A program made the translations under genes and the position numbers. From assembly GCA_017609525.1 (NCBI GenBank), contig JAFCDT010000011.1:1-33872 (forward strand): 33,872 nucleotides of DNA. The letters run 5' to 3'. The stretch is from Candidatus Woesearchaeota archaeon (GTDB lineage: Archaea; Nanobdellota; Nanobdellia; SCGC-AAA011-G17; JACPNG01). This document shows, one piece after another, positions 17,548 through 32,977 of the stretch. Within the stretch, counting starts at the first letter, position 1; every line of letters begins with the position of its first letter. The notes under the pieces are model-generated. The model was not told the DNA's origin. It did not search any database and saw nothing but the letters and a program-made list of their open reading frames with translations.

Positions 17548-17654
17548 ATAATTTTTGATGGTTTTAAGAACCAAGCAGAAAATATATTTTAAAATACTTC
17601 CCTAGAAGACAGAGGGGCGTGGAACTTTTAAATGAGAATTTTTTTATTTTTATT

Positions 17655-18614
17655 ATGAAGAAAGAATTTCATTTTTATGATTTACCAAAGGAAAAAATTT
17701 ACCTTAGGTTAAAGAATTCTTTTAGAAGAAAGCTTTTCAAAGAAGCACAGAAAAGATATACATCCTTTAACAAATTATCCAAGGTTCTTGATTGTTGTCC
17801 TCATAGTTTAAGTAATTGGAACAGTGGAAAATATTCCATTCCTGGAAGAATAATTTTTCACTTGTCTTATCTATTGAATAAGAGTTTTTCATTGAAGGAA
17901 ATAGAAAAGAATATAACTTCCATTTCAACAGGAAGAATGACAAAAAAGCAAGGAAGTGTTGGTAAAGCAATTTCAAATCTCAAATTTCCAATCAAGATTT
18001 CTTTTAAATTATCAAGAATTGTTGCTAATTTTATTGGAGATGGATCTATTAATCTAAATTATTATTTTAATACCACCTATTTTAATAAAGAATACAAATT
18101 AATTGAAAGCCTTAAAGAGAATATAACAACTGTGTTTGGAAAAATGGACTTTAATATTAATCAAAGTAAGGACGAGGTGTATTATATCAATGTTCCTGCA
18201 ATTGTTGGGTTAATTCTAGTTACTTGGTTTGGAAATTTTTATAGCAAGGTTGCAAGGGTACCATTTGAAATACTTAAAGGTGAGACAAATTGGAAAAAGG
18301 GATTTTTACAAGGGATTTATGATGATGAAGGAACTTTAGATATTAAAAGAGGTCATTTACTAATTGTTTCTTCTAGTCCATATCTGATAGAGGATATAAG
18401 CAAGCTTCTTGCTTGGTTTGAGATAAGACCGCGCAAAATATATGCTATAAATTATACAACTAATGTGAATAGACTTAATAGAGTTGCTTATCACTTGGTA
18501 ATTGCCAATAGGATGTCTATAAATAGGTTTGCTAAAAATATCGGATTTTTACATCCTACAAAATTAGAAAAATTGCATAAAATGACAAGCGAAAGCTTTA
18601 AAAAGGACTGGTGA
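17655..18614 (+). CDS. Stand-alone LAGLIDADG homing endonuclease-like protein with N-terminal HTH
   Basis: From ATG 17655 the protein has 319 residues. The first 90 or so look like a helix-turn-helix region (SFNKLSKVLDCCPHSLSNW). Two LAGLIDADG-type helices follow: LSRIVANFIGDGSI and WKKGFLQGIYDDEGTL, each with the acidic metal ligands in place. It is not inside an intein or intron that I can see. CTTTTAAAT at 17624-17632 is about 25 bases upstream, favouring this ATG; a GTG at 17619 would add 12 residues. Its stop overlaps the rpo10 start (GTGA). It may be a mobile endonuclease or a domesticated DNA-binding regulator. Confidence 0.75.
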   Translation: MKKEFHFYDLPKEKIYLRLKNSFRRKLFKEAQKRYTSFNKLSKVLDCCPHSLSNWNSGKYSIPGRIIFHLSYLLNKSFSLKEIEKNITSISTGRMTKKQGSVGKAISNLKFPIKISFKLSRIVANFIGDGSINLNYYFNTTYFNKEYKLIESLKENITTVFGKMDFNINQSKDEVYYINVPAIVGLILVTWFGNFYSKVARVPFEILKGETNWKKGFLQGIYDDEGTLDIKRGHLLIVSSSPYLIEDISKLLAWFEIRPRKIYAINYTTNVNRLNRVAYHLVIANRMSINRFAKNIGFLHPTKLEKLHKMTSESFKKDW

Positions 18615-18847
18615 AGGTTTTTAGATATTACTATCCGGAGTTGATTAAAATAATTATCCCTTTAAGATGCATGTCATGTGGAAAGCCTGTAGGACACCTC
18701 CATGAGGATTACCTAGATAAAATAAAAAACGGCGAAGATAAAAAGAAAGCTTTGGATGATTTAGGATTAGAAAGATACTGTTGCAGGGCCTTGTTTTTAG
18801 GACATGTTGATTTATTAGATACAATAATGCAATTTAAGAAGAGTTAG
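18611..18847 (+). CDS. rpo10: RNA polymerase subunit Rpo10 (RpoN), N-terminally extended
   Basis: Small zinc-binding RNA polymerase subunit that bridges Rpo3 and the large subunits. The zinc motif is C-M-S-C plus the paired cysteines in RYCCRAL, with the GHVDLLD segment. The family normally starts just before IPLRC. Here no start codon is there, and the frame reads back to GTG 18611, which overlaps the endonuclease stop in the tetramer GTGA, adding about 14 residues (MKVFRYYYPELIK). A TTG at 18641 is an alternative. Translation may thus depend on coupling to the endonuclease gene. Confidence 0.92.
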   Translation: MKVFRYYYPELIKIIIPLRCMSCGKPVGHLHEDYLDKIKNGEDKKKALDDLGLERYCCRALFLGHVDLLDTIMQFKKS

Positions 18848-19665
18848 TTGGCTATTAGTTTTTGCAACATATTGTAGGTATTAATAACCTTGTTCTGATA
18901 AATAACTGTTTGTTTAAAAGGCGGAATTCCTTTATATTTTCTAACAGCACCCATTCCTGCATTATAGGTTGCAATTGCCACCCTCATATCTCCTTTATTT
19001 TCATTGAGACTTTTAGCTATAGTTTCAACACAGAAATTAATTGCTGAGGGAATATGAAATCTTTGGTCAATTTCTAAAATTTCTTCGGGTGTTTTTCCTT
19101 TTATTTTTGTTAAAACCTCTTTTTTATAGTCTTTAAACAAACCTAATGCTTTTTGATAATGGTTATCTGCACTTATTTCAAGTCTTCTAGCATAGTTAAA
19201 ATTATTTTGATCAAATGCTTTGTGTGCTAATTGATCCTGTTTTATAAATTTTCTCCATTCCTGCCAACCCTTGGTGAAATTTGGAGTGATTATTACATTG
19301 AATCCATATTCTTCTGCTGTTTTTGGCATTATCTGAAAAAGGCCCCCTGCACCAACCCAGGATACAGCATAAGGGTTGCTTGAGGACTCTACCTTAGCAA
19401 TGGCAACAATCAGAAGAGGGTCAACCTGATAGATTTGTTTATTTTTTTCTACTGCATCAATTATTGTGTTTAGGTGAGGACGCATCTGCTGAAAATTTTC
19501 AATAATTGCCTCTAATTCCTCTCTTGTTCTAACTTCTGCTTTTGTTTCTTCTATTAATTGTTCTGGTTTTTTAGTTGGAGCAATTACATTTGAAACCAAG
19601 GAACCTGATGTTGCTGTTAGTGCTCCTAAAATCAATGCGCCCCTTATTATTTGTCCTAGTTTCAT
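18844..19665 (-). CDS. Exported SLT-type lytic transglycosylase
   Basis: Lysozyme-like fold that cleaves the glycan of bacterial peptidoglycan. The 273 residues start with a signal peptide or membrane anchor (KLGQIIRGALILGALTATSG). The catalytic domain follows: Glu93 in AIAKVESSSNPYA, then AGGLFQIMPKTA at about 106 and ATYNAGMGAVRKYKG near residue 240. A helical insertion sits between about 120 and 215. Archaea lack murein, so the substrate would be bacterial or the enzyme repurposed; such genes occur in several DPANN genomes. ATG 19665 is preferred to TTG 19674. The 3' end overlaps rpo10 by 4 bases. Confidence 0.87.
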   Translation of the reverse strand: MKLGQIIRGALILGALTATSGSLVSNVIAPTKKPEQLIEETKAEVRTREELEAIIENFQQMRPHLNTIIDAVEKNKQIYQVDPLLIVAIAKVESSSNPYAVSWVGAGGLFQIMPKTAEEYGFNVIITPNFTKGWQEWRKFIKQDQLAHKAFDQNNFNYARRLEISADNHYQKALGLFKDYKKEVLTKIKGKTPEEILEIDQRFHIPSAINFCVETIAKSLNENKGDMRVAIATYNAGMGAVRKYKGIPPFKQTVIYQNKVINTYNMLQKLIAN

Positions 19666-19749
19666 TTTAAACAATCACATCTTTTTTAGAAAAATATATT
19701 TATTGAAGAACAATTTTCTTTATAAATGTATCCCTTGCTTTTAGAAAAT

Positions 19750-20635: not shown

Positions 20636-20920
20636 TTATTTATATTTCTTTTGTTTGATTGGTATTCTTGTATATTTTTTACAATTTTCACAATAAATAA
20701 TTACCTGATGATTCCTAATCCTTATTCTAGAGGTTTTTGGTGTCAGGTATTTGTAGCAATGTTTACAGAATTTTCTTTTTAAGCTTGGAGGAATTTTTAT
20801 TCTTGATTTCATTGCAATTTTTCTTGCAATGGTTATATAACGATTGGCGATTTTTTCTGCTTGTTTGAACAATTCAATGATTCTCTCTTTGGGGATATTT
20901 TTTGAATATTTTGATTGCAT
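20636..20920 (-). CDS. rnp4: RNase P protein component 4 (Rpp21/Rpr2)
   Basis: Zinc-ribbon subunit of archaeal RNase P, which trims tRNA 5' ends; it works with Rpp29 on the RNA specificity domain. From ATG 20920 the 94 residues have an N-terminal helical half and the zinc ligands in CKHCYKYL and CENCKKYTRIP. A TTG at 20941 would add 7 residues. The TATA-like TTTTAAATA at about 20943-20951 is 27 bases before the ATG and supports it. The gene lies just downstream of the 5S-like RNA on the same strand. Confidence 0.9.
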   Translation of the reverse strand: MQSKYSKNIPKERIIELFKQAEKIANRYITIARKIAMKSRIKIPPSLKRKFCKHCYKYLTPKTSRIRIRNHQVIIYCENCKKYTRIPIKQKKYK

Positions 20921-20969
20921 GCGAATTATATTCTTTTTCAAGTATTTAAAATTTTAGAAATATAAGAGA

Positions 20970-21051
20970 TGTGAACAGCGAACTGGATTTCCCGCTCAAA
21001 GAGCAGTAACGTCCAGAACGTCGGTCTGCTTAACATTCTTGGCCGTTCACA
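20970..21051 (-). rRNA. 5S rRNA-like RNA lacking most of the helix II/III arm
   Basis: Read on the minus strand, 82 bases closed by helix TGTGAAC/GTTCACA (helix I). Bases 21034 down to 21028 read GTTAAGC; then CGTTCTGGACGTTACTGC, a GCTC/GAGC hairpin, and CGGGAAATCCAGTTCGC. These match helix IV, loop E and helix I of archaeal 5S rRNA in order. What is missing is about 35-40 bases between the 5' strand (GAACGGCCA) and GTTAAGC, that is most of helices II and III. G+C is about 51%, far above the surroundings. A TATA box at 21071-21082 fits a start near 21050. Either a miniature 5S, a decayed copy or an assembly deletion. Confidence 0.7.
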
Positions 21052-21070: not shown

Positions 21071-21082
21071 GATTTATAAAGG
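21071..21082 (-). promoter_or_regulatory. TATA box of the 5S-like RNA gene
   Basis: Minus-strand CCTTTATAAATC preceded by an A/C-rich BRE-like element (ACCAAAA). The box centre is about 27 bases from the 5' end of the RNA helix at 21050, the standard archaeal distance. Confidence 0.6.
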
Positions 21083-21183: not shown

Positions 21184-21930
21184 ATGAGTAACAAAGAAAA
21201 AATCATTAACATATTGATAGAAAGGGGAGGCGATTTACTTAAACAGCCCTACAAACTTAATACTTTCACTAAAAATCCTGAAGCAGATAAATTATTAAAT
21301 AACCTAGAAAATTACCCTCACCTTTTTGTTTTAGCTTGTGTTATGGACAGACAGATTAATTCAGAAAGAGCATGGCTAATTCCCTATAAAGTTTCCAAAG
21401 AAATTAGCAGTTATGAATTCTCAACATTTTTAGAGTTAAGTCAAAATCAAATTAAAGAAATATTTAATAATAAAAAACTCCATAGATTTAATGACTTAAT
21501 GGCTGAAAATTTTTATCTTGCAATCCAGAAAATTCACAATAATTACAGAGATAATGCATCTAATATTTGGAAAGATAATCCTAAAAGTGCCACTATTATT
21601 AGAAGATTTCTGGAATTTAAGGGTATTGGGGTAAAAATCGCAACAATGGCTACCAATATACTAGCAAGAGAGTTTAAAATCCCGATGCAGGATCATTTAT
21701 GTATTGATATCTCACCAGATGTACATGTAAAAAGAGTTTTTAAAAGATTAGGATTTATATCTAAAGATGCCAGTAATGAAGAATTAATATATTGCGCAAG
21801 AGAGTTACATCCAAAATACCCAGGAATCTTTGATTTATCTTGTTTTGAAATTGGAAAAAAATGGTGCAATCCAAAGAATCCAAAATGTTCAGAATGTTAT
21901 TTAAATGATGATTGTATCAAAATAATTTAA
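21184..21930 (+). CDS. Endonuclease III-family HhH-GPD DNA glycosylase
   Basis: Base-excision repair glycosylase family. The 248-residue protein has the helix-hairpin-helix FKGIGVKIATMA with Lys151 at the place of the EndoIII catalytic lysine, and Asp179 (ISPDVHVKRVF) at the place of the catalytic aspartate. The 4Fe-4S cluster motif is canonical: Cys228-x6-Cys235-x2-Cys238-x5-Cys244. The N-terminal 100 residues differ from standard Nth. Members of this family next to m5C methylases repair T:G mismatches (Mig of Methanothermobacter plasmid pFV1), which fits the context here. A lysine suggests lyase activity as well. The next gene starts one base after the stop. Confidence 0.85.
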   Translation: MSNKEKIINILIERGGDLLKQPYKLNTFTKNPEADKLLNNLENYPHLFVLACVMDRQINSERAWLIPYKVSKEISSYEFSTFLELSQNQIKEIFNNKKLHRFNDLMAENFYLAIQKIHNNYRDNASNIWKDNPKSATIIRRFLEFKGIGVKIATMATNILAREFKIPMQDHLCIDISPDVHVKRVFKRLGFISKDASNEELIYCARELHPKYPGIFDLSCFEIGKKWCNPKNPKCSECYLNDDCIKII

Positions 21931-21931
21931 A

Positions 21932-23386
21932 ATGCACATACTAACAAAATCCAAATATTTGGCTGGTTTAGAATGCCCGAGATATCTGTGGGTTGTATTT
22001 AATCAGCCTGAAAAGATAAGGAAAGCCACAATAGCTGAAGAGTTCAAGTTTAAAGAAGGAGATAAAGTGGGCCAGATGGCTAAAAAACTCTTTCCTGAAG
22101 GCATAGATCTGCCTACAGACTATAAAGAAAATATCAGGAAAACTAAAGAAGCTTTAAAGGAGAAAAAGCCTTTATTTGAGGCTGGATTTGAGTTCAATAA
22201 CTGTTTCTCAAGAGCGGATATCTTAGTTCCTGTAGGTGATGAATGGGACATAATAGAAGTAAAATCCGGAACAAGAGTCAAAGATATTAATTTTCATGAT
22301 GTTTCTTTCCAGAAATATGTTTATGAAGGAAATGGATTAAAGATAAGAAAATGCTTTCTTTTGCATCTGAATAAAGATTTTGTAAGAAATGGAGAGGTAG
22401 ATGTTGAAAACCTGTTTGAGAAAGATGATATAACTGCTGATGTAGAAAAAGCAATCAAAGGAATAGATAAAAGAATCAAGGAATTATTTGGGTTTGTTTC
22501 TTTAAAAACTCCTCCAAAGGCAGGACTTTCTTTAACTAAAATGTTTAAAGATGGCCATCATGACTGTTTTGCGGAAGGATGTGTTGATTTACCTGAAAAT
22601 CATGTATTCTGTCTTTATCGTGGGAATAAATTAGCCTGTGAACTATATGAAAATGGTGTTGAAACAATAAAAGATATTCCTGAAGATATTAAACTGAATG
22701 TAAAGCAGAAAATCCAGAGAGGTTGTGAGATTAATGGGAAAATCTATGTTGATAAGAAAGGAATTAAAGAGTTCATGAAAAAACTGCAATACCCCCTTTA
22801 TTATCTGGATTTTGAAACATTTTCTACTGCTGTTCCTATGTTTGATGGTTTAAAGCCTTATTCTCAGGTTTGTTTTCAGTTTTCTTTGCATGTTGTTAAG
22901 GAAGAAGGAGAAAAGCCCGAACATTATGAATTTCTTTATGATGGAAACGAAGATCCAAGAGAAGAGTTTATTTTAGCTTTGAAGAAAGTGTTAGGTGATA
23001 AAGGTTCTGTTGTTGTTTATAATCAAAGTTTTGAGATTAACAGGTTAAAGGAGTTGGAAGAACAGTTTCCGGAACATAAAGACTGGGTTGAATCTGTTCT
23101 GAAAAGAGTTGTTGACCTGCTTATTCCATTCAGAGAGTTTAGTTATTATAATCCCAAACAGCAAGGCTCAGCTTCAATTAAAAAGGTCCTTCCAGCTTTA
23201 TGTGGCAAAAGCTATGAAGGAATGGAAATAGATAACGGAGGATTAGCTTCAGTTGAGTTTTATAATATGGCTTATGGGGATTGTAAAGATAAAGAAAAAA
23301 CCAGAGAGAATTTACTAAAATATTGTGAAATGGATACTTTAGCAGAGGTTATGATTGTTGAGAAGTTGGGGGAATTGGTTGAATAA
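21932..23386 (+). CDS. DUF2779 protein: Cas4-like nuclease plus RNase H-fold exonuclease domains
   Basis: A 484-residue protein. The N-terminal half (about 1-170) resembles a PD-(D/E)XK nuclease: LTKSKYLAGLECPRYLW at the start, typical of Cas4/PD-DExK families, then SRADILVPVGDEWDIIEVKSG with Asp, Glu and Lys of the active site. The C-terminal half (about 285-484) is the DUF2779 region with YYLDFETFSTAVP, VVYNQSFEINRLKEL and YCEMDTLAEVMI, matching DEDD-type exonuclease motifs. Function is undefined. It is in an operon with the glycosylase and its last 38 bases overlap the convergent GHKL ATPase gene, suggesting shared mobility. Confidence 0.8.
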   Translation: MHILTKSKYLAGLECPRYLWVVFNQPEKIRKATIAEEFKFKEGDKVGQMAKKLFPEGIDLPTDYKENIRKTKEALKEKKPLFEAGFEFNNCFSRADILVPVGDEWDIIEVKSGTRVKDINFHDVSFQKYVYEGNGLKIRKCFLLHLNKDFVRNGEVDVENLFEKDDITADVEKAIKGIDKRIKELFGFVSLKTPPKAGLSLTKMFKDGHHDCFAEGCVDLPENHVFCLYRGNKLACELYENGVETIKDIPEDIKLNVKQKIQRGCEINGKIYVDKKGIKEFMKKLQYPLYYLDFETFSTAVPMFDGLKPYSQVCFQFSLHVVKEEGEKPEHYEFLYDGNEDPREEFILALKKVLGDKGSVVVYNQSFEINRLKELEEQFPEHKDWVESVLKRVVDLLIPFREFSYYNPKQQGSASIKKVLPALCGKSYEGMEIDNGGLASVEFYNMAYGDCKDKEKTRENLLKYCEMDTLAEVMIVEKLGELVE

Positions 23387-25133
23387 GATTATATATTTTT
23401 ATCAGCAATTGAACAGAGTCATTTATTTTGAATTTATCTAATTCTTCTTTTGAAGATATGTAATCGTAAATATTGTGTGCTTTTGGATTAATTTCGTTTC
23501 TTATTTTATCCAACAATTTTTTTACTTTTTCTATGTATCTTTTGATATTGCTCGGAAAATCGGATCTATTATTATATAAATTCCTTATAAGCGGGCTTAG
23601 CGTCAAAGGTTGATTAAATTCTTTATTCCACCAGATCTCTTCGTCTTCTTTTTTAGGAAATTTCTTCTCTAAAATATTATACAGAAGATTCTCAACTAAT
23701 TTTCTAGATAAAAAGAAAGTTGCATTTAGATAACCATTTTTATAACATTCATTGATTTCTTCTTCTAAAGGATAATAAAATTTATCTGGATAATCACCTT
23801 TTATATCTATAAACTTATCTTCTTTTAATGGTTCCGTTATAACTTCCGGAACTTTTACTAACGTTGGCTTAGATTTTGCTTTTTTCTTTTTTCCGGTTTT
23901 TGTTTTTTGTCTTGCTTTTTTCTTATGTGATTCTTCGTCACTTCTTAGATCAATAAATAACTCTCTTATTGAAATCTGAACAAATCTTGTTAAATCTTGA
24001 AATTCCTGATTAGCAATTACTCCTTCCCTAGTTGTTGTGTCGATTATTTTAGGATTCTTTGATTTGCTAATATGAACCATACCAAATATTGCATTATTTC
24101 TTGGACTCATAGTATTGTTTTGTGCAAATAGATCTAACTCCGCCCAATCATTTCCAGGTTCACCATAAGGTTTAACTCTAAAATTGTCTCTATAGATCTT
24201 AATTCCATGATATTCTTTTAAAGTATCATTTATTTCTTTAATATCTTGTTTTGACATTTCATAATTTAGGGCATCTTTAAGATATTTTGAATTTTTATAA
24301 TAAAAGAACAATTCAAAAACCGCATCCCCACAAGATAGTTTTTTATCAAGAACTATAGTGTCTTTCTTTTTCTTTCCTGTTATAGTTACGAATTCATATT
24401 GAATTCTGTTCCCGCTGATTATTTTTGTTTTTAAATAAAAAGAAGCTTTATTCAAGAAATTTTTACGAATTTTTTTAAATTGTTTAACTTCTTTATGGAA
24501 CTTTGGGATTATTTTAAAGTTTTTGGAAGATTTATTCGGGGGATTTAACAAATATATGTCTCTTAATAGACTTTTTTGTATATCTATGTCATTCCAATCA
24601 TGTTTTAGATCTTTTATTTCAATCTTAGTTCCACATTCTTTCTTTTTTTTCTTAAACTCATACCCCTTATTTATTACTTCGTTACACAAAACATTTGGTT
24701 TTTGGTATTCTTCCCAATTGAAGATTATTTTATAACCCTTTGTCTCATTTTTTGGGTATGTGTAGAGGATGGTTCTTTTGCCAAGACTTTCAGAAGACAG
24801 TCTTCCAATTCCTTTCTCTCCAACAGGAATCCTTTCTCCGTTGTTTATTTTGATAATTTTGGATTTATTTGGTGTTGCTATATTCATCCATTTGTTTTCT
24901 ATCTCACTACTACCCATCCCGTCTCCATTGTCTGAGATTGTTATTGAAGCGTTTGTTGTATCAATCTCATTAAGGTTTATCTCTACTTTTTTAGAATTAG
25001 CATCATAAGAATTTTTTATTAATTCCAGTATAGCAATATTTTTATTACTAATTGATTCTTCCCCAAGTTTTCTTATAATATTTCCACTTACCTTAAACCT
25101 AAAAGGTATATAATTATTATTTTCATTAGTCAT
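23349..25133 (-). CDS. GHKL (MutL/MORC/Hsp90-type) ATPase of a restriction-modification operon
   Basis: A 594-residue protein with an N-terminal GHKL ATPase: N-box ELIKNSYDAN (37-46), DNGDGM (68-73) and lid GEKGIGR (105-111). An S5-like middle region follows, then a Lys-rich linker (about 400-425, KKKARQKTKTGKKKKAKSKP). The C-terminal 140 residues are helical with LSRKLVENLLYNILEKKF and a RNEINPKAHN motif, similar to HEPN or DUF4145-type domains. MutL-like ATPases of this kind were described in restriction-modification operons by Iyer and colleagues (2008). It is the last gene of the operon and overlaps the methylase by 8 bases. Confidence 0.75.
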   Translation of the reverse strand: MTNENNNYIPFRFKVSGNIIRKLGEESISNKNIAILELIKNSYDANSKKVEINLNEIDTTNASITISDNGDGMGSSEIENKWMNIATPNKSKIIKINNGERIPVGEKGIGRLSSESLGKRTILYTYPKNETKGYKIIFNWEEYQKPNVLCNEVINKGYEFKKKKKECGTKIEIKDLKHDWNDIDIQKSLLRDIYLLNPPNKSSKNFKIIPKFHKEVKQFKKIRKNFLNKASFYLKTKIISGNRIQYEFVTITGKKKKDTIVLDKKLSCGDAVFELFFYYKNSKYLKDALNYEMSKQDIKEINDTLKEYHGIKIYRDNFRVKPYGEPGNDWAELDLFAQNNTMSPRNNAIFGMVHISKSKNPKIIDTTTREGVIANQEFQDLTRFVQISIRELFIDLRSDEESHKKKARQKTKTGKKKKAKSKPTLVKVPEVITEPLKEDKFIDIKGDYPDKFYYPLEEEINECYKNGYLNATFFLSRKLVENLLYNILEKKFPKKEDEEIWWNKEFNQPLTLSPLIRNLYNNRSDFPSNIKRYIEKVKKLLDKIRNEINPKAHNIYDYISSKEELDKFKINDSVQLLIKIYNLIQPIPPTSQQS

Positions 25134-26538
25134 TTTTATTTAACCACCCATAAACAGATTTGGCTATTCTTTCGGCCATTAATGGTGGAACCGCATTGCC
25201 TATTTGTGTATATATATCTTTTTTATTTCCTTTGAATTTATAATTTTTTGGGAAACTCTGAATTAACGCACACTCTTCAGCAGAGAGCATCCTTATTGTT
25301 TTATCATCATATTTTACAAGAGCTTCCGCACCATCTTTCCAGTAACGTGCTGAAATAGTATACGAAGGTTCTTCAGGATTAAGAAAACTCCACCCAAACC
25401 CTATATTTCTCTTTTTGTTATTTCTTTCCCTCTTTTTAAATCCCTCTATCAGTTTTGCAGAATAAAACAATTTTTCATCAGCATTTGTTTTATCAGTCAG
25501 TATTTTCTTTACATTGTTCCATAATCTCAATTTTTCCCCTTCTTTTGAAAGACCATCTTTACTATGTGTTTTATCCGGAAAAGAAAAATCTAATTGTAAA
25601 TTCTTTTTTGTTCCGATAATAAATATTCTGTATCTTTTCTGGGGCACCCCGTAATCTGCCGTATTAACTTTATGTACTTTGGCATTATAACCTATTTTAT
25701 AAAATTCTTTAAGAATTATTTCTATTACTTTTTCATTTCTTTCATTTTTCATGGATAGTAAGCCTCTGACATTCTCCATGATAAACATCTTTGGTTTTAA
25801 TCCCTTTACAATTCTAAGATATTCACGGAAAAGAGAGTTTCTTGGGTCATTTGGTCTCCTTTTCCCTGCCATACTGAACCCCTGACAAGGGGGGCCACCA
25901 ACTATTACATCTATCTTCTGATTTTTCGTAAGTTTTTTTATTTCACTTACAGACAATGATTGGATATCTCTGCACAAGCCTTTTGAGTTTTTATGGTTTG
26001 AATTGAATGTTTCTATTGCATTCTTGTCTGAATCAATCCCCAAAAGAACATCAAACCCTGCTTTCTCAAATCCGTAGCTCATACCTCCTGCACCACAGAA
26101 TAAATCTATAATATTTGGTTTATTTTGTGCAACAGTATTTTTTATTTTATTTACGCAACTACTAAGATTATTTTTTATTTCATGTTCCCAGAATCTTAAA
26201 ACTCTCCATCCCTCTTTCTTTAGTTGAGAATTTATTTTTCTGTCTCTTATTTTATTTGTTTTTATTTTTTCAGACCAGAATTTATTATGTGCTTGGGGTT
26301 CTTTATAACATCTTGGGCATTTATGCCAGAAACATCCGTCTATAAAGACAGCAACTTTCTGTTTTGAAAATATTATATCTGGTTTTCCTATAATTTTAGC
26401 ATGTATTCTGTATCCTTTCACTCCTGAAGAAAATAGTTCCTTTCTTAATTTAATTTCTGGTTTTGTGTCTTTCGCTTTTATCTGAGACATATTATAACTT
26501 CTCTGTTTTTTTGTATGTACATCAACCATTTTGAACAT
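25126..26538 (-). CDS. Vsr endonuclease-DNA cytosine-5 methyltransferase fusion
   Basis: A 470-residue fusion. Residues about 5-135 match very-short-patch repair (Vsr) endonuclease, which nicks at T:G mismatches left by m5C deamination: VDVHTKKQRSYNMS, GKPDIIF (Asp54 catalytic), FIDGCFWHKCPRC (zinc and intercalating region) and GWRVLRFWEHEI. Residues about 142-470 are a complete m5C methylase: motif I DLFCGAGG (145-152), motif IV PPCQGF with nucleophile Cys218, ENVRGLLS, and the C-terminal motifs SYTISARYW and QIGNAVPP. The two are usually separate genes. A 6-base gap from the preceding methylase and an 8-base overlap with the ATPase indicate coupled translation. Confidence 0.92.
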   Translation of the reverse strand: MFKMVDVHTKKQRSYNMSQIKAKDTKPEIKLRKELFSSGVKGYRIHAKIIGKPDIIFSKQKVAVFIDGCFWHKCPRCYKEPQAHNKFWSEKIKTNKIRDRKINSQLKKEGWRVLRFWEHEIKNNLSSCVNKIKNTVAQNKPNIIDLFCGAGGMSYGFEKAGFDVLLGIDSDKNAIETFNSNHKNSKGLCRDIQSLSVSEIKKLTKNQKIDVIVGGPPCQGFSMAGKRRPNDPRNSLFREYLRIVKGLKPKMFIMENVRGLLSMKNERNEKVIEIILKEFYKIGYNAKVHKVNTADYGVPQKRYRIFIIGTKKNLQLDFSFPDKTHSKDGLSKEGEKLRLWNNVKKILTDKTNADEKLFYSAKLIEGFKKRERNNKKRNIGFGWSFLNPEEPSYTISARYWKDGAEALVKYDDKTIRMLSAEECALIQSFPKNYKFKGNKKDIYTQIGNAVPPLMAERIAKSVYGWLNKND

Positions 26539-26544
26539 AGAGTC

Positions 26545-30213
<3,669 letters not shown>

Positions 30214-30217
<4 letters not shown>

Positions 30218-30465
30218 TTGGCTAACTCCTTCACAGCATCAGCAGGATCCTTTAATTTATATAGTCTTTTTCTGGAGTCTTCAGGATCTAATGTTAAATC
30301 CAGCCAGCCGAATTTTTTAAGTCTTGAGAGGACAATACTGGTATTGGTTATCTTCAGTAAATCTTCTGCCTGCTGGTGGGTAAACTGCTTATCTTTGAAT
30401 TTAAACCATAATTTAGAATAGTGCTTCATAATCCATTTTGGAAGAGGAGATATTAAATTACCCAT
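30214..30465 (-). CDS. Small winged-helix regulator heading the restriction-modification operon
   Basis: An 83-residue protein with a helix-turn-helix (FTHQQAEDLLKITNTSIVLSRLKKFGWL) and a beta wing (DPEDSRKRLYKL). It resembles small archaeal MarR/AbiEi-like winged helices. It heads the operon, as controller proteins often do in restriction-modification systems, letting methylase act before nuclease. A perfect palindrome lies 6 bases upstream of its start, between TATA box and start codon, which would suit self-repression. Its stop overlaps the helicase start in ATGA. Confidence 0.72.
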
Positions 30466-30470
30466 TTGGT

Positions 30471-30497
30471 TAATTATTGTATAATTAGTATATAAAG
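30471..30497 (-). promoter_or_regulatory. Operator palindrome and TATA box of the restriction-modification operon
   Basis: TAATTAT-TGT-ATAATTA (30471-30487) is a perfect inverted repeat with 7-base arms. On the minus strand TTTATATA (30490-30497) is the likely TATA box, about 28 bases before ATG 30465. A repressor on the palindrome would block polymerase, in line with autoregulation by the winged-helix protein. Confidence 0.55.
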
Positions 30498-30530
30498 ATT
30501 TCTATATCCCACTATAATAATATTTATATA

Positions 30531-30562
30531 TTAGTTAACCTTATAGTATATTAATTAACTAA
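30531..30562. repeat. Inverted repeat TTAGTTAA...TTAACTAA
   Basis: Arms at 30531-30538 and 30555-30562 are perfect complements with a 16-base spacer. It lies between the operon promoter and the transposase. It could be a second regulator site, an upstream element, or part of the insertion junction. The region is very AT-rich, so chance is possible. Confidence 0.35.
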
Positions 30563-30571
30563 ATAAGATAA

Positions 30572-30611
30572 ACCAGAGAAGACGAAGTTTCGACGCAACA
30601 TCTCCTCTGGT
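30572..30611 (+). repeat. Imperfect hairpin abutting the transposase start codon
   Basis: Arms ACCAGAGAAGA (30572-30582) and TCTCCTCTGGT (30601-30611) pair with one mismatch, and the loop holds CGAAGTTTCG, itself partly self-complementary. The 3' arm ends exactly at the ATG at 30612. It may be a leader hairpin limiting transposase translation or a structured element end. Confidence 0.5.
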
Positions 30612-31763
30612 ATGGAGTCCGGAATGAACCCCACAAATAGAAGTAAGAAAAAGGAATTTAATAAATCTTCCCCTAATCTGAAGTCTAAAGAGATAAAGAG
30701 AATTACAAAACTTCTCAAAAAGAAAGTTTATCCTTCAATCAAACTGAAGATGCACCATAACTCAAAGTATTCTGAAACAGACTTTCTTGACTTATTAACC
30801 TATGTTGCAGTAACCCATGACTTCACAAATAATGGATCAAAAACATTTGAATTATTAAAGGAAAACACTCCCGCATCAAACACAGTTATACATCATATCA
30901 AGAAACTTCATCCTGAGTATGTTGAAAAACTATTCATAAAAACATTTGATAAATTAATTAAAGAAGCAACAAAATACAAACCCTTTAGGCAAAGAGTAGA
31001 TTTAGCAATTGACATAACAGAACAGATGTATTACGGAGATAAAAACGACTACATGGTGTGTGAAACAAAGCCAAAAGACGGAACTTCTCACTGCTTCAAA
31101 TACATTACAATAAATGTAGTTGAAAATGGTAAAAGATTTACTTTACTTGCATTACCAATGCATAAATTTACAACAAAGGCAAAAGTTGTAAGGAGACTGA
31201 TAACTTATGCAAAATCAAAAGTCAAAATAAGATATATTTACCTAGACAGAGGCTTCTTTAATTCTGAAATTATTAATTTACTGAAAGAATTAAGAGTTAA
31301 ATTTCTCATGCCTGCTGTCCAGAATGTAAAAATACAGAGATATATGAAAAAATATGAAGGAATACAGTCAAGGATTATAGATTATGATATGGGCTACAGA
31401 AAATACAACAGAGCAGAATTTAAGCTTGTATTCGTCAATGACAAACAGGGAACTAAGAGAACATTTGCCACAAATATCGTTATTGGAGAACAGATAGCAC
31501 ATTACTACTTTAAATGGTATTCAAAAAGATGGGGAATTGAGACATCTTACAGAGTTAAAGGAGATTTTAAAGCAAGGACAACATCAAAGTATTATTCAGT
31601 AAGATTGTTTTATTTTATGTGGTCTGTCTGCTTGTATAATATCTGGGTTTTAGTTAGTCTGGTTGTTGCTTTAATATTCTTTATTGATTTAAAGAAGCCA
31701 TTAGTTACTGCTAAATTATTTGGAACTGTTCTTTATTCTTCGGAACCAAAAGGAATAACGTAA
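30612..31763 (+). mobile_element. DDE transposase, IS4-family (ISH3-like)
   Basis: A 383-residue transposase with a DDE active site: Asp134 (DLAIDITE), Asp212 (IYLDRGFF) and Glu310 (YSKRWGIETSYR, the Y-2-R-3-E-6-K-like signature of IS4 families). The overall layout recalls haloarchaeal ISH3-type elements. The frame is intact, so it may be active. ATG 30624 preceded by GGAGTCCGGA is an alternative start. I could not find matching terminal inverted repeats or a target duplication, so the element's borders are not defined. It inserted beside the restriction-modification operon promoter. Confidence 0.85.
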
Positions 31764-31779
31764 CATAGCGTGAGCTCTC

Positions 31780-32250
31780 TTATTTTGATGAGGTAACAGA
31801 ATTTTGCTGAACTCCATTTAACCACCAATTCACTTTAATAGTTTTACTATCTGGAATTTTATGGATTCCATTAATATGCTTTTTAGCTAATCTTTTTTTA
31901 CTGATATCTGCATTTGGATCATCAATGTGGACAACTAAATCAATGTTCCACATCTTCTCCTTATCGTCAAATCTTGTAATAATATTAAATGAAGTCTTTT
32001 TAGTTTTTATTTGAGTATTATGGACTATTGGTTGAGGATTAAAAATCTGTCCACCACTTGCCCATGAGTATTGTTGATTAATTCCATCCTTAGGGTCATT
32101 TGTAGAGTTTGGAATATAACTTGCCGTATAAGTTTCTTCCAATTGGGAGGGATCTATACCTATCTCTTGGAATTTGGCAGATAGATCTATACTCTTTCTA
32201 GGACTTTTCCCAGAATCATATTCTACCTCAATCTCAATTAAATAAGTCAT
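31780..32250 (-). CDS. Unrecognised 156-residue protein
   Basis: I do not recognise this protein. It has no membrane segment or signal peptide. The start (MTYLIEIEVEYDSGKSPRKS) and much of the rest look beta-rich, with a WASGGQIFNPQP segment near residue 65 and VVHIDDPNADIS near residue 108. It ends 16 bases after the transposase stop in convergent orientation. A TATA-like AAATAAAAG (about 32272-32282) is upstream, and a large palindrome lies further up at 32303-32366. Confidence 0.55.
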   Translation of the reverse strand: MTYLIEIEVEYDSGKSPRKSIDLSAKFQEIGIDPSQLEETYTASYIPNSTNDPKDGINQQYSWASGGQIFNPQPIVHNTQIKTKKTSFNIITRFDDKEKMWNIDLVVHIDDPNADISKKRLAKKHINGIHKIPDSKTIKVNWWLNGVQQNSVTSSK

Positions 32251-32302
32251 ATCTATTTTAGAAAGGAAAGCTTTTATTTACTTTGCGATCTACTGATGAT
32301 TG

Positions 32303-32366
32303 GCTTTGTGTATAAAGTCCTTAAAATGAGCTATTTTTTACACAGGAGCGACTAAATACACAAAGC
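32303..32366. repeat. 64-bp imperfect palindrome
   Basis: GCTTTGTGTAT (32303-32313) is the exact reverse complement of ATACACAAAGC (32356-32366). A second pair, AGTC (32316-32319) and GACT (32350-32353), lies at the same inner distance, giving 17-base arms with two mismatches. Inside is AAAAT...ATTTT. It sits in the 183-base gap between two minus-strand genes of unknown function. It could be an operator, a recombination site, or a hairpin RNA. Confidence 0.6.
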
Positions 32367-32433
32367 TGGTATAATTATATTGTTAAGTTAAAGGGATTTT
32401 AAAAACTAATGAAACTAAAAGAAAAGAAAGTAG

Positions 32434-32742
32434 TTAGAAAAGAGTATAGCCCTTAATTCCATAATGAATTTCTATTAGTCTTATGGCCCTTAACCTATCT
32501 TTATTTTTACAGAAGCTAACACGAACCACATATTCAGGTGATTTGTCTTTTTTTCTTGGTTTTGTTTGTTTAAGGAAGCATACTTTATACCATTCTATTG
32601 TTCCATCTTGTCTTAATCCTTCAACAAAGTTCCCTAAATCCTCTAAGAACTTTTTTTTTGCTCTTGCTTCAAGATTATCTGTTTCTTTTCTGATAATTAT
32701 GCTTTTTTTACTTCTTGTAGAACGAATCGTCACCTCTCCCAT
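32434..32742 (-). CDS. Unrecognised small basic protein, 102 residues
   Basis: No family recognised. The sequence is Lys/Arg-rich (RSTRSKKSIIIRKE near the start, KQTKPRKKDKSPE near residue 58), with a C-terminal region rich in hydrophobic strands (VVRVSFCKNKDRLRAIRLIEIH). ATG 32742 follows a TATA box (CTTATAAACT, about 32763-32771) by about 25 bases, fitting a leaderless message. A Shine-Dalgarno-like GGGAGAGGTGA lies just inside the coding sequence, but no standard start codon follows it at proper spacing. Confidence 0.5.
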   Translation of the reverse strand: MGEVTIRSTRSKKSIIIRKETDNLEARAKKKFLEDLGNFVEGLRQDGTIEWYKVCFLKQTKPRKKDKSPEYVVRVSFCKNKDRLRAIRLIEIHYGIKGYTLF

Positions 32743-32977
32743 AAACTATTGTTTATCCTTGAAGTTTATAAGAATTTTTTTAGTGCAATATGATGTTTTT
32801 AAAACTAGAAAAGTTTTCCCTGTTGGGGTTTTTGCGGTCTATTCTGCTCAATTCTTGGTTTTCTTTGTACGAATCCCACTAATTTTCCATGCGATAAATT
32901 TGTTTCTTTTATTGTAACTACTTTTTAGAGACTATAAAATAGAAAGGTTTAAATATTAGAATATTGGTTGTTTTAAT

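Follow-up and report, generated by a model that had tools for sequence, protein, structure and literature searches.

A shortened 5S rRNA gene without the helix II/III arm at the orthologous 5S locus of a woesearchaeote-like archaeon

We found that the minus strand of a 33,872-nucleotide stretch of archaeal DNA (hereafter the window), read from position 21050 to 20971, is a shortened 5S rRNA gene at the locus where relatives carry their own 5S. It measures 80 nt, compared to 114–119 nt for the full-length gene of the relatives, it lacks the helix II/III arm, and its form is unique among the genomes examined. The draft genome to which the window belongs, as contig C60, comprises 785 kb in 66 contigs and is 86% complete; named records from the same order carry the labels Woesearchaeota, Nanoarchaeota and similar. 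The 5S rRNA has been described as indispensable to cytoplasmic ribosomes in every species and as conserved in its secondary structure (PMC7283268). Reduced versions have been found in mitochondria. A cellular ribosome that truly worked without the uL18/uL5 arm would directly test what this arm is for. On balance, we lean toward the view that the window gene is a deletion derivative of the orthologous 5S, either recent or an artefact of the library or the assembly, rather than an established working 5S.

Identity and location of the short 5S gene

We derived a covariance model (R1) from 30 full-length 5S genes belonging to the same order, with the window sequence left out, and it covers the short gene end to end. 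In the window search it scores 50.5 bits (E = 1.2e-13), versus about 94–128 bits for full-length relatives, and the runner-up match in the window reaches only 10.9 bits. The Rfam 5S model (RF00001), the check put forward in the earlier note, did not reach its gathering threshold and gave no match at E ≤ 10 in either the window or its genome. The failure of the Rfam model would suit an unrelated small RNA or a likeness that arose by chance. However, this explanation is refuted by the E-value of the independent R1 model together with the orthologous position, and we give it practically no credence.

The strand reads GTGAACGGCCA-AGAAT-GTTAAGCAGACCGACGTTCTGGACGTTACTGCTCTTTGAGCGGGAAATCCAGTTCGCTGTTCAC, and the order of parts previously proposed for it, namely helix I, GTTAAGC, the helix IV/loop E sequence and the closing strand of helix I, is borne out. 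The 5′ strand of helix I, GTGAACGGC (21042..21050, minus strand), forms nine pairs, one of them G-U, with the 3′ strand, GCTGTTCAC (20971..20979, minus strand), at pair probabilities of 0.96–1.0. This helix closes the short molecule, in keeping with the complementary ends described earlier. GTTAAGC comes after the 5′ side of helix I and before helix IV. The arm made up of helix IV (CTGGA/TCCAG) with loop E and helix V (GCTC-TTT-GAGC) is intact (20983..21016, minus strand). The suggestion that the helix V hairpin is shortened proved to be wrong—it is of full size, and the full-length gene of the relative G009 carries an identical GCTCTTTGAGC. Counted across the whole short gene, 28 of the 30 retained columns that are ≥90% conserved in relatives are unchanged. 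A TATA box, TTTATAAA (21073..21080, minus strand), starts 30 nt upstream of the short gene; a box at a similar position occurs in most of the family, which upholds the promoter spacing noted before. The window gene is like the canonical archaeal 5S of RF00001 in helix I, loop E, helix IV, helix V, the conserved positions, the locus and the promoter; what sets it apart is the absence of helix III, of the helix II 5′ strand and of most of loops B and C.

The adjoining gene codes for the RNase P subunit Rpp21 (20636..20941, minus strand; PF04032, E = 2.7e-13), which by synteny is the usual neighbor of the 5S gene in this family. The 5S likewise adjoins Rpp21 in seven relatives (G002, G004–G007, G009 and G013), with SprT near and with RpoN, uS9 and uL13 lying beyond in those where the fetched stretch is long enough. 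The short gene occupies the place of the single 5S of these relatives. In the same neighborhood, the window has a LAGLIDADG-domain ORF (17619–18614) between uS9 and RpoN and an SLT transglycosylase-like gene (18844–19674) between RpoN and SprT, the latter with an ortholog in the same place in G007.

Upstream of the 5S gene, between it and the PTH2 region, sits an insert of about 11.7 kb (21184..32850) with restriction-modification genes, a helicase and a DDE transposase. It codes for a cytosine methylase fused to a Vsr-like domain, an N6/N4 methylase and a ResIII helicase that is type IV restriction-like. G007 is without the insert here, and less than 1 kb separates its 5S from the genes flanking the far end of the insert. 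The idea that the 5S gene had served as an attachment site, so that a second 5S or a piece of one would mark the far end of the insert, was rejected: the insert has no notable end repeat and the window has no second 5S.

The missing arm and its junction

In the comparison with G007, the closest sampled relative, the short gene has 5 nt, AGAAT (21035..21039, minus strand), where G007 has 40 nt between GGTCA and GTTAA. The net loss of 35 nt accords with the 35–40 bases of the 5′ arm reported absent in the earlier note. The stretch lost relative to G007 runs from the end of loop A through the helix II 5′ strand, the 5′ side of loop B and all of helix III to loop C. The helix II 3′ strand, CAGACC (21023..21028, minus strand), is still present; it would pair perfectly with the GGTCTG of G007, the partner that is missing from the short 5S. 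Judging by sequence, a helix II strand kept without its partner would be expected of a recent loss or an artefact.

Under the deletion reading, a single event would have taken the entire helix III arm, together with the helix II 5′ strand, out of the orthologous 5S. The event would be recent, might affect part or all of the sampled population and might have taken place at hairpins; alternatively, the deletion could have originated in library preparation or when the draft genome was assembled. The cells would depend on a full-length 5S that is not seen in the assembly. We infer that the deletion is probably recent, that its product probably lacks a function and that a full-length copy probably exists. 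In support of a deletion or an artefact, the family offers a precedent for assembly trouble at the same spot, as a contig of G003 ends inside its 5S.

A different reading takes the 80-nt RNA as a functional minimal 5S, which without helices II and III would be the sole 5S of the cellular (non-organellar) ribosome of a woesearchaeote-like DPANN archaeon. It would keep helix I and the 23S-docking loop E arm and have a small substitute hairpin for helices II and III. The helix I and loop E domains would then suffice, with uL18 and uL5 binding without the arm via other contacts. We regard this as possible but doubtful. In its favor, the gene is the sole 5S of the assembly, lies at the orthologous locus and keeps its promoter. 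Moreover, fold prediction allows an 8-bp substitute hairpin at the junction, between AGAAUGUU and GACGUUCU (21015..21039, minus strand; pair probabilities of 0.52–0.81). A stable version of this hairpin is possible because the junction has an extra T that is absent from relatives, the predicted energy being −5.1 kcal/mol with it and −0.6 without. The extra T also means that the junction is more than canonical sequence simply joined end to end, which counts against a deletion derivative. However, 133 of 1024 random 5-nt junctions (13%) equal or better the substitute hairpin, and 656 of 1024 equal or better the fold of the whole molecule. Since random junctions often fold as well, the hairpin is no evidence of selection, and selection for it was rejected as an explanation. 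The orphan helix II strand, which still resembles a paired strand, also speaks against a minimal 5S.

The AGAAT filler resembles the GAGAAA that precedes GTTAAGC in G003, and the ancestor may therefore have been of the expanded type described below, with its extra hairpins perhaps favoring deletion. This is only a suggestion; one extra T in the canonical CAGAA that precedes GTTAAGC would explain the filler equally well. A search of viral contigs for the junction pattern yielded none.

Other 5S copies and the survey of relatives

Searches of the assembled 86% of the genome with RF00001 and R1, both at E ≤ 10, recovered no second 5S, and the arm sequence pattern was absent from the same genome at up to three mismatches. 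An arm-only model (R3) gave a best match of only 10.7 bits in the assembled 86%, while in positive controls it recovered the arm of G007 (65.9 bits), G009 (60.1 bits) and the expanded G005 (41 bits). For the assembled 86%, these searches are strong negatives. They bear on a split 5S, in which a separately encoded helix II/III arm would pair with or be joined to the orphan strand. The good preservation of that strand would fit such an arrangement; the R3 result goes against it. The sole weak arm-like match, C50:2687-2718 (13.4 bits), is apparently antisense in an open frame and was rejected as chance; a weak match akin to it is also found in G053. We consider a split 5S highly improbable.

The short gene could also be a pseudogene, if duplication had placed a full-length 5S in the unassembled 14% and the copy left at the ancestral locus had decayed by deletion. 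The order has a precedent in G036, where a decayed second copy (L056 975–1091, equivalent to C30:46474–46590, minus strand; 23.8 bits) lies about 1.4 kb from an intact 5S and represents a 5S pseudogene. Bacterial 5S remnants near rRNA operons have also been described (PMC7812874). Like the window gene, these have a 5S-like core with parts missing. However, they are mostly downstream of a normal 5S and were judged likely untranscribed, whereas the window gene has a promoter and no normal copy was found in the assembly. Against a pseudogene, the order has very few second copies, the retained parts are almost free of decay and the functional copy would have to sit in the missing part of the genome. 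Almost all relatives have just one 5S gene, which makes a hidden second copy improbable from the outset and counts against a deletion derivative as well. We deem a pseudogene of this kind unlikely.

Across the order, R1 found a match in 84 of 103 genomes. The complete 5S genes are 114–119 nt or, in expanded forms, 140–179 nt in length, bar the window gene and that of G095 (99 nt), the only other complete gene below 114 nt; the 5S of G003 is cut by the contig end. A short-form model (R2), run on 371 genomes drawn from the phylum, ranked the window gene first with 81.1 bits against 66.8 for the next match, an advantage it has because the training set of R2 includes the window sequence. Among the matches listed, those next in rank that R1 also spans are 3′ parts of longer 5S genes. 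A scan for genus-mates in GTDB r220 contigs by SprT alignment yielded 71 archaeal loci, 34 of them with a 5S, and only that of G095 was short. The arm-less short form is common to no relative examined, in a comparison set without another genome of the same genus. This is one half of a pair of findings that the earlier note had named together as refuting its proposal; the other half, a complete 5S elsewhere, is absent from the 86% assembly.

G095 (JAIOSD010000056.1) has one detectable 5S of 99 nt (L055 1551–1649, plus strand; L133 7339–7437, minus strand), while its genus-mates have genes of 116 nt. As in the window gene, this single 5S has lost helix III and has an extra T before GT(T/C)AA. 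In contrast to the window gene, it keeps helix II, which is capped by a new 5-bp helix in place of helix III. In this one sequence, the new helix arises from two small changes relative to the genus-mates. The uL18 of G095 also looks ordinary. Though one sequence, G095 is a better case for a substitute helix than the window gene, and it is an instance of arm reduction elsewhere in the order—an observation that favors a minimal 5S and counts against a deletion derivative.

Arm-binding proteins and variation of the arm

We looked for compensating changes in the arm binders uL18 and uL5 and found none, both proteins being canonical: uL18 does not differ from 18 relatives at any column that is ≥90% conserved, and uL5 is complete with both of its Pfam domains. 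In algal mitoribosomes with a reduced or divergent 5S, the RNA interface of uL18m is lost (PMC9576764) or uL18m is absent (PMC8660880). By analogy, an old loss of the arm would be expected to have marked uL18 and uL5, and the unchanged uL18 tells against a minimal 5S. The mitochondrial 5S of Polytomella magna, which lacks H2 and H3 and keeps the loop E domain (PMC9576764), speaks in favor of a minimal 5S. It is also without domain alpha and is held by mL40 (PMC9576764), whereas the window gene keeps helix I and belongs to a cellular archaeal genome with a canonical uL18.

A recent deletion or a library or assembly fault would account for the uniqueness of the short form, the orphan strand and the unchanged uL18 and uL5. 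Against a deletion derivative stand the lack of a full-length 5S or arm in the assembled 86% and the intact promoter and 28 of 30 positions. A working short 5S keeps its share of plausibility, given the intact state of what is retained and the failure to find another 5S. We conclude that a new minimal 5S is no more likely than a recent deletion or a fault in the assembly. Of the functional arm-less 5S envisaged in the earlier note, the 5S at its orthologous locus, with promoter and closing helix, holds up; the working form does not, being unconserved and accompanied by canonical uL18 and uL5, and its function is not established.

Even if the window gene is an artefact or a deletion derivative, this order shows unusual variation in the helix II/III arm. 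The ten genomes whose arm carries additional hairpins, and the one in which helix III is lost, provide natural variants for the question of arm function. In the ten genomes with an expanded 5S (140–179 nt), the extra hairpins of the helix III arm sit in loop C and, in several, also in loop B. The expanded genes are located at L036 1494–1657, L037 56–233, L038 1490–1659, L039 1452–1619, L040 1547–1725 and L041 1450–1597, and in the further genomes G078, G079, G082 and G084 (L057–L060). A 2021 survey listed archaeal 5S expansions in Halobacterales only (PMC7812874).
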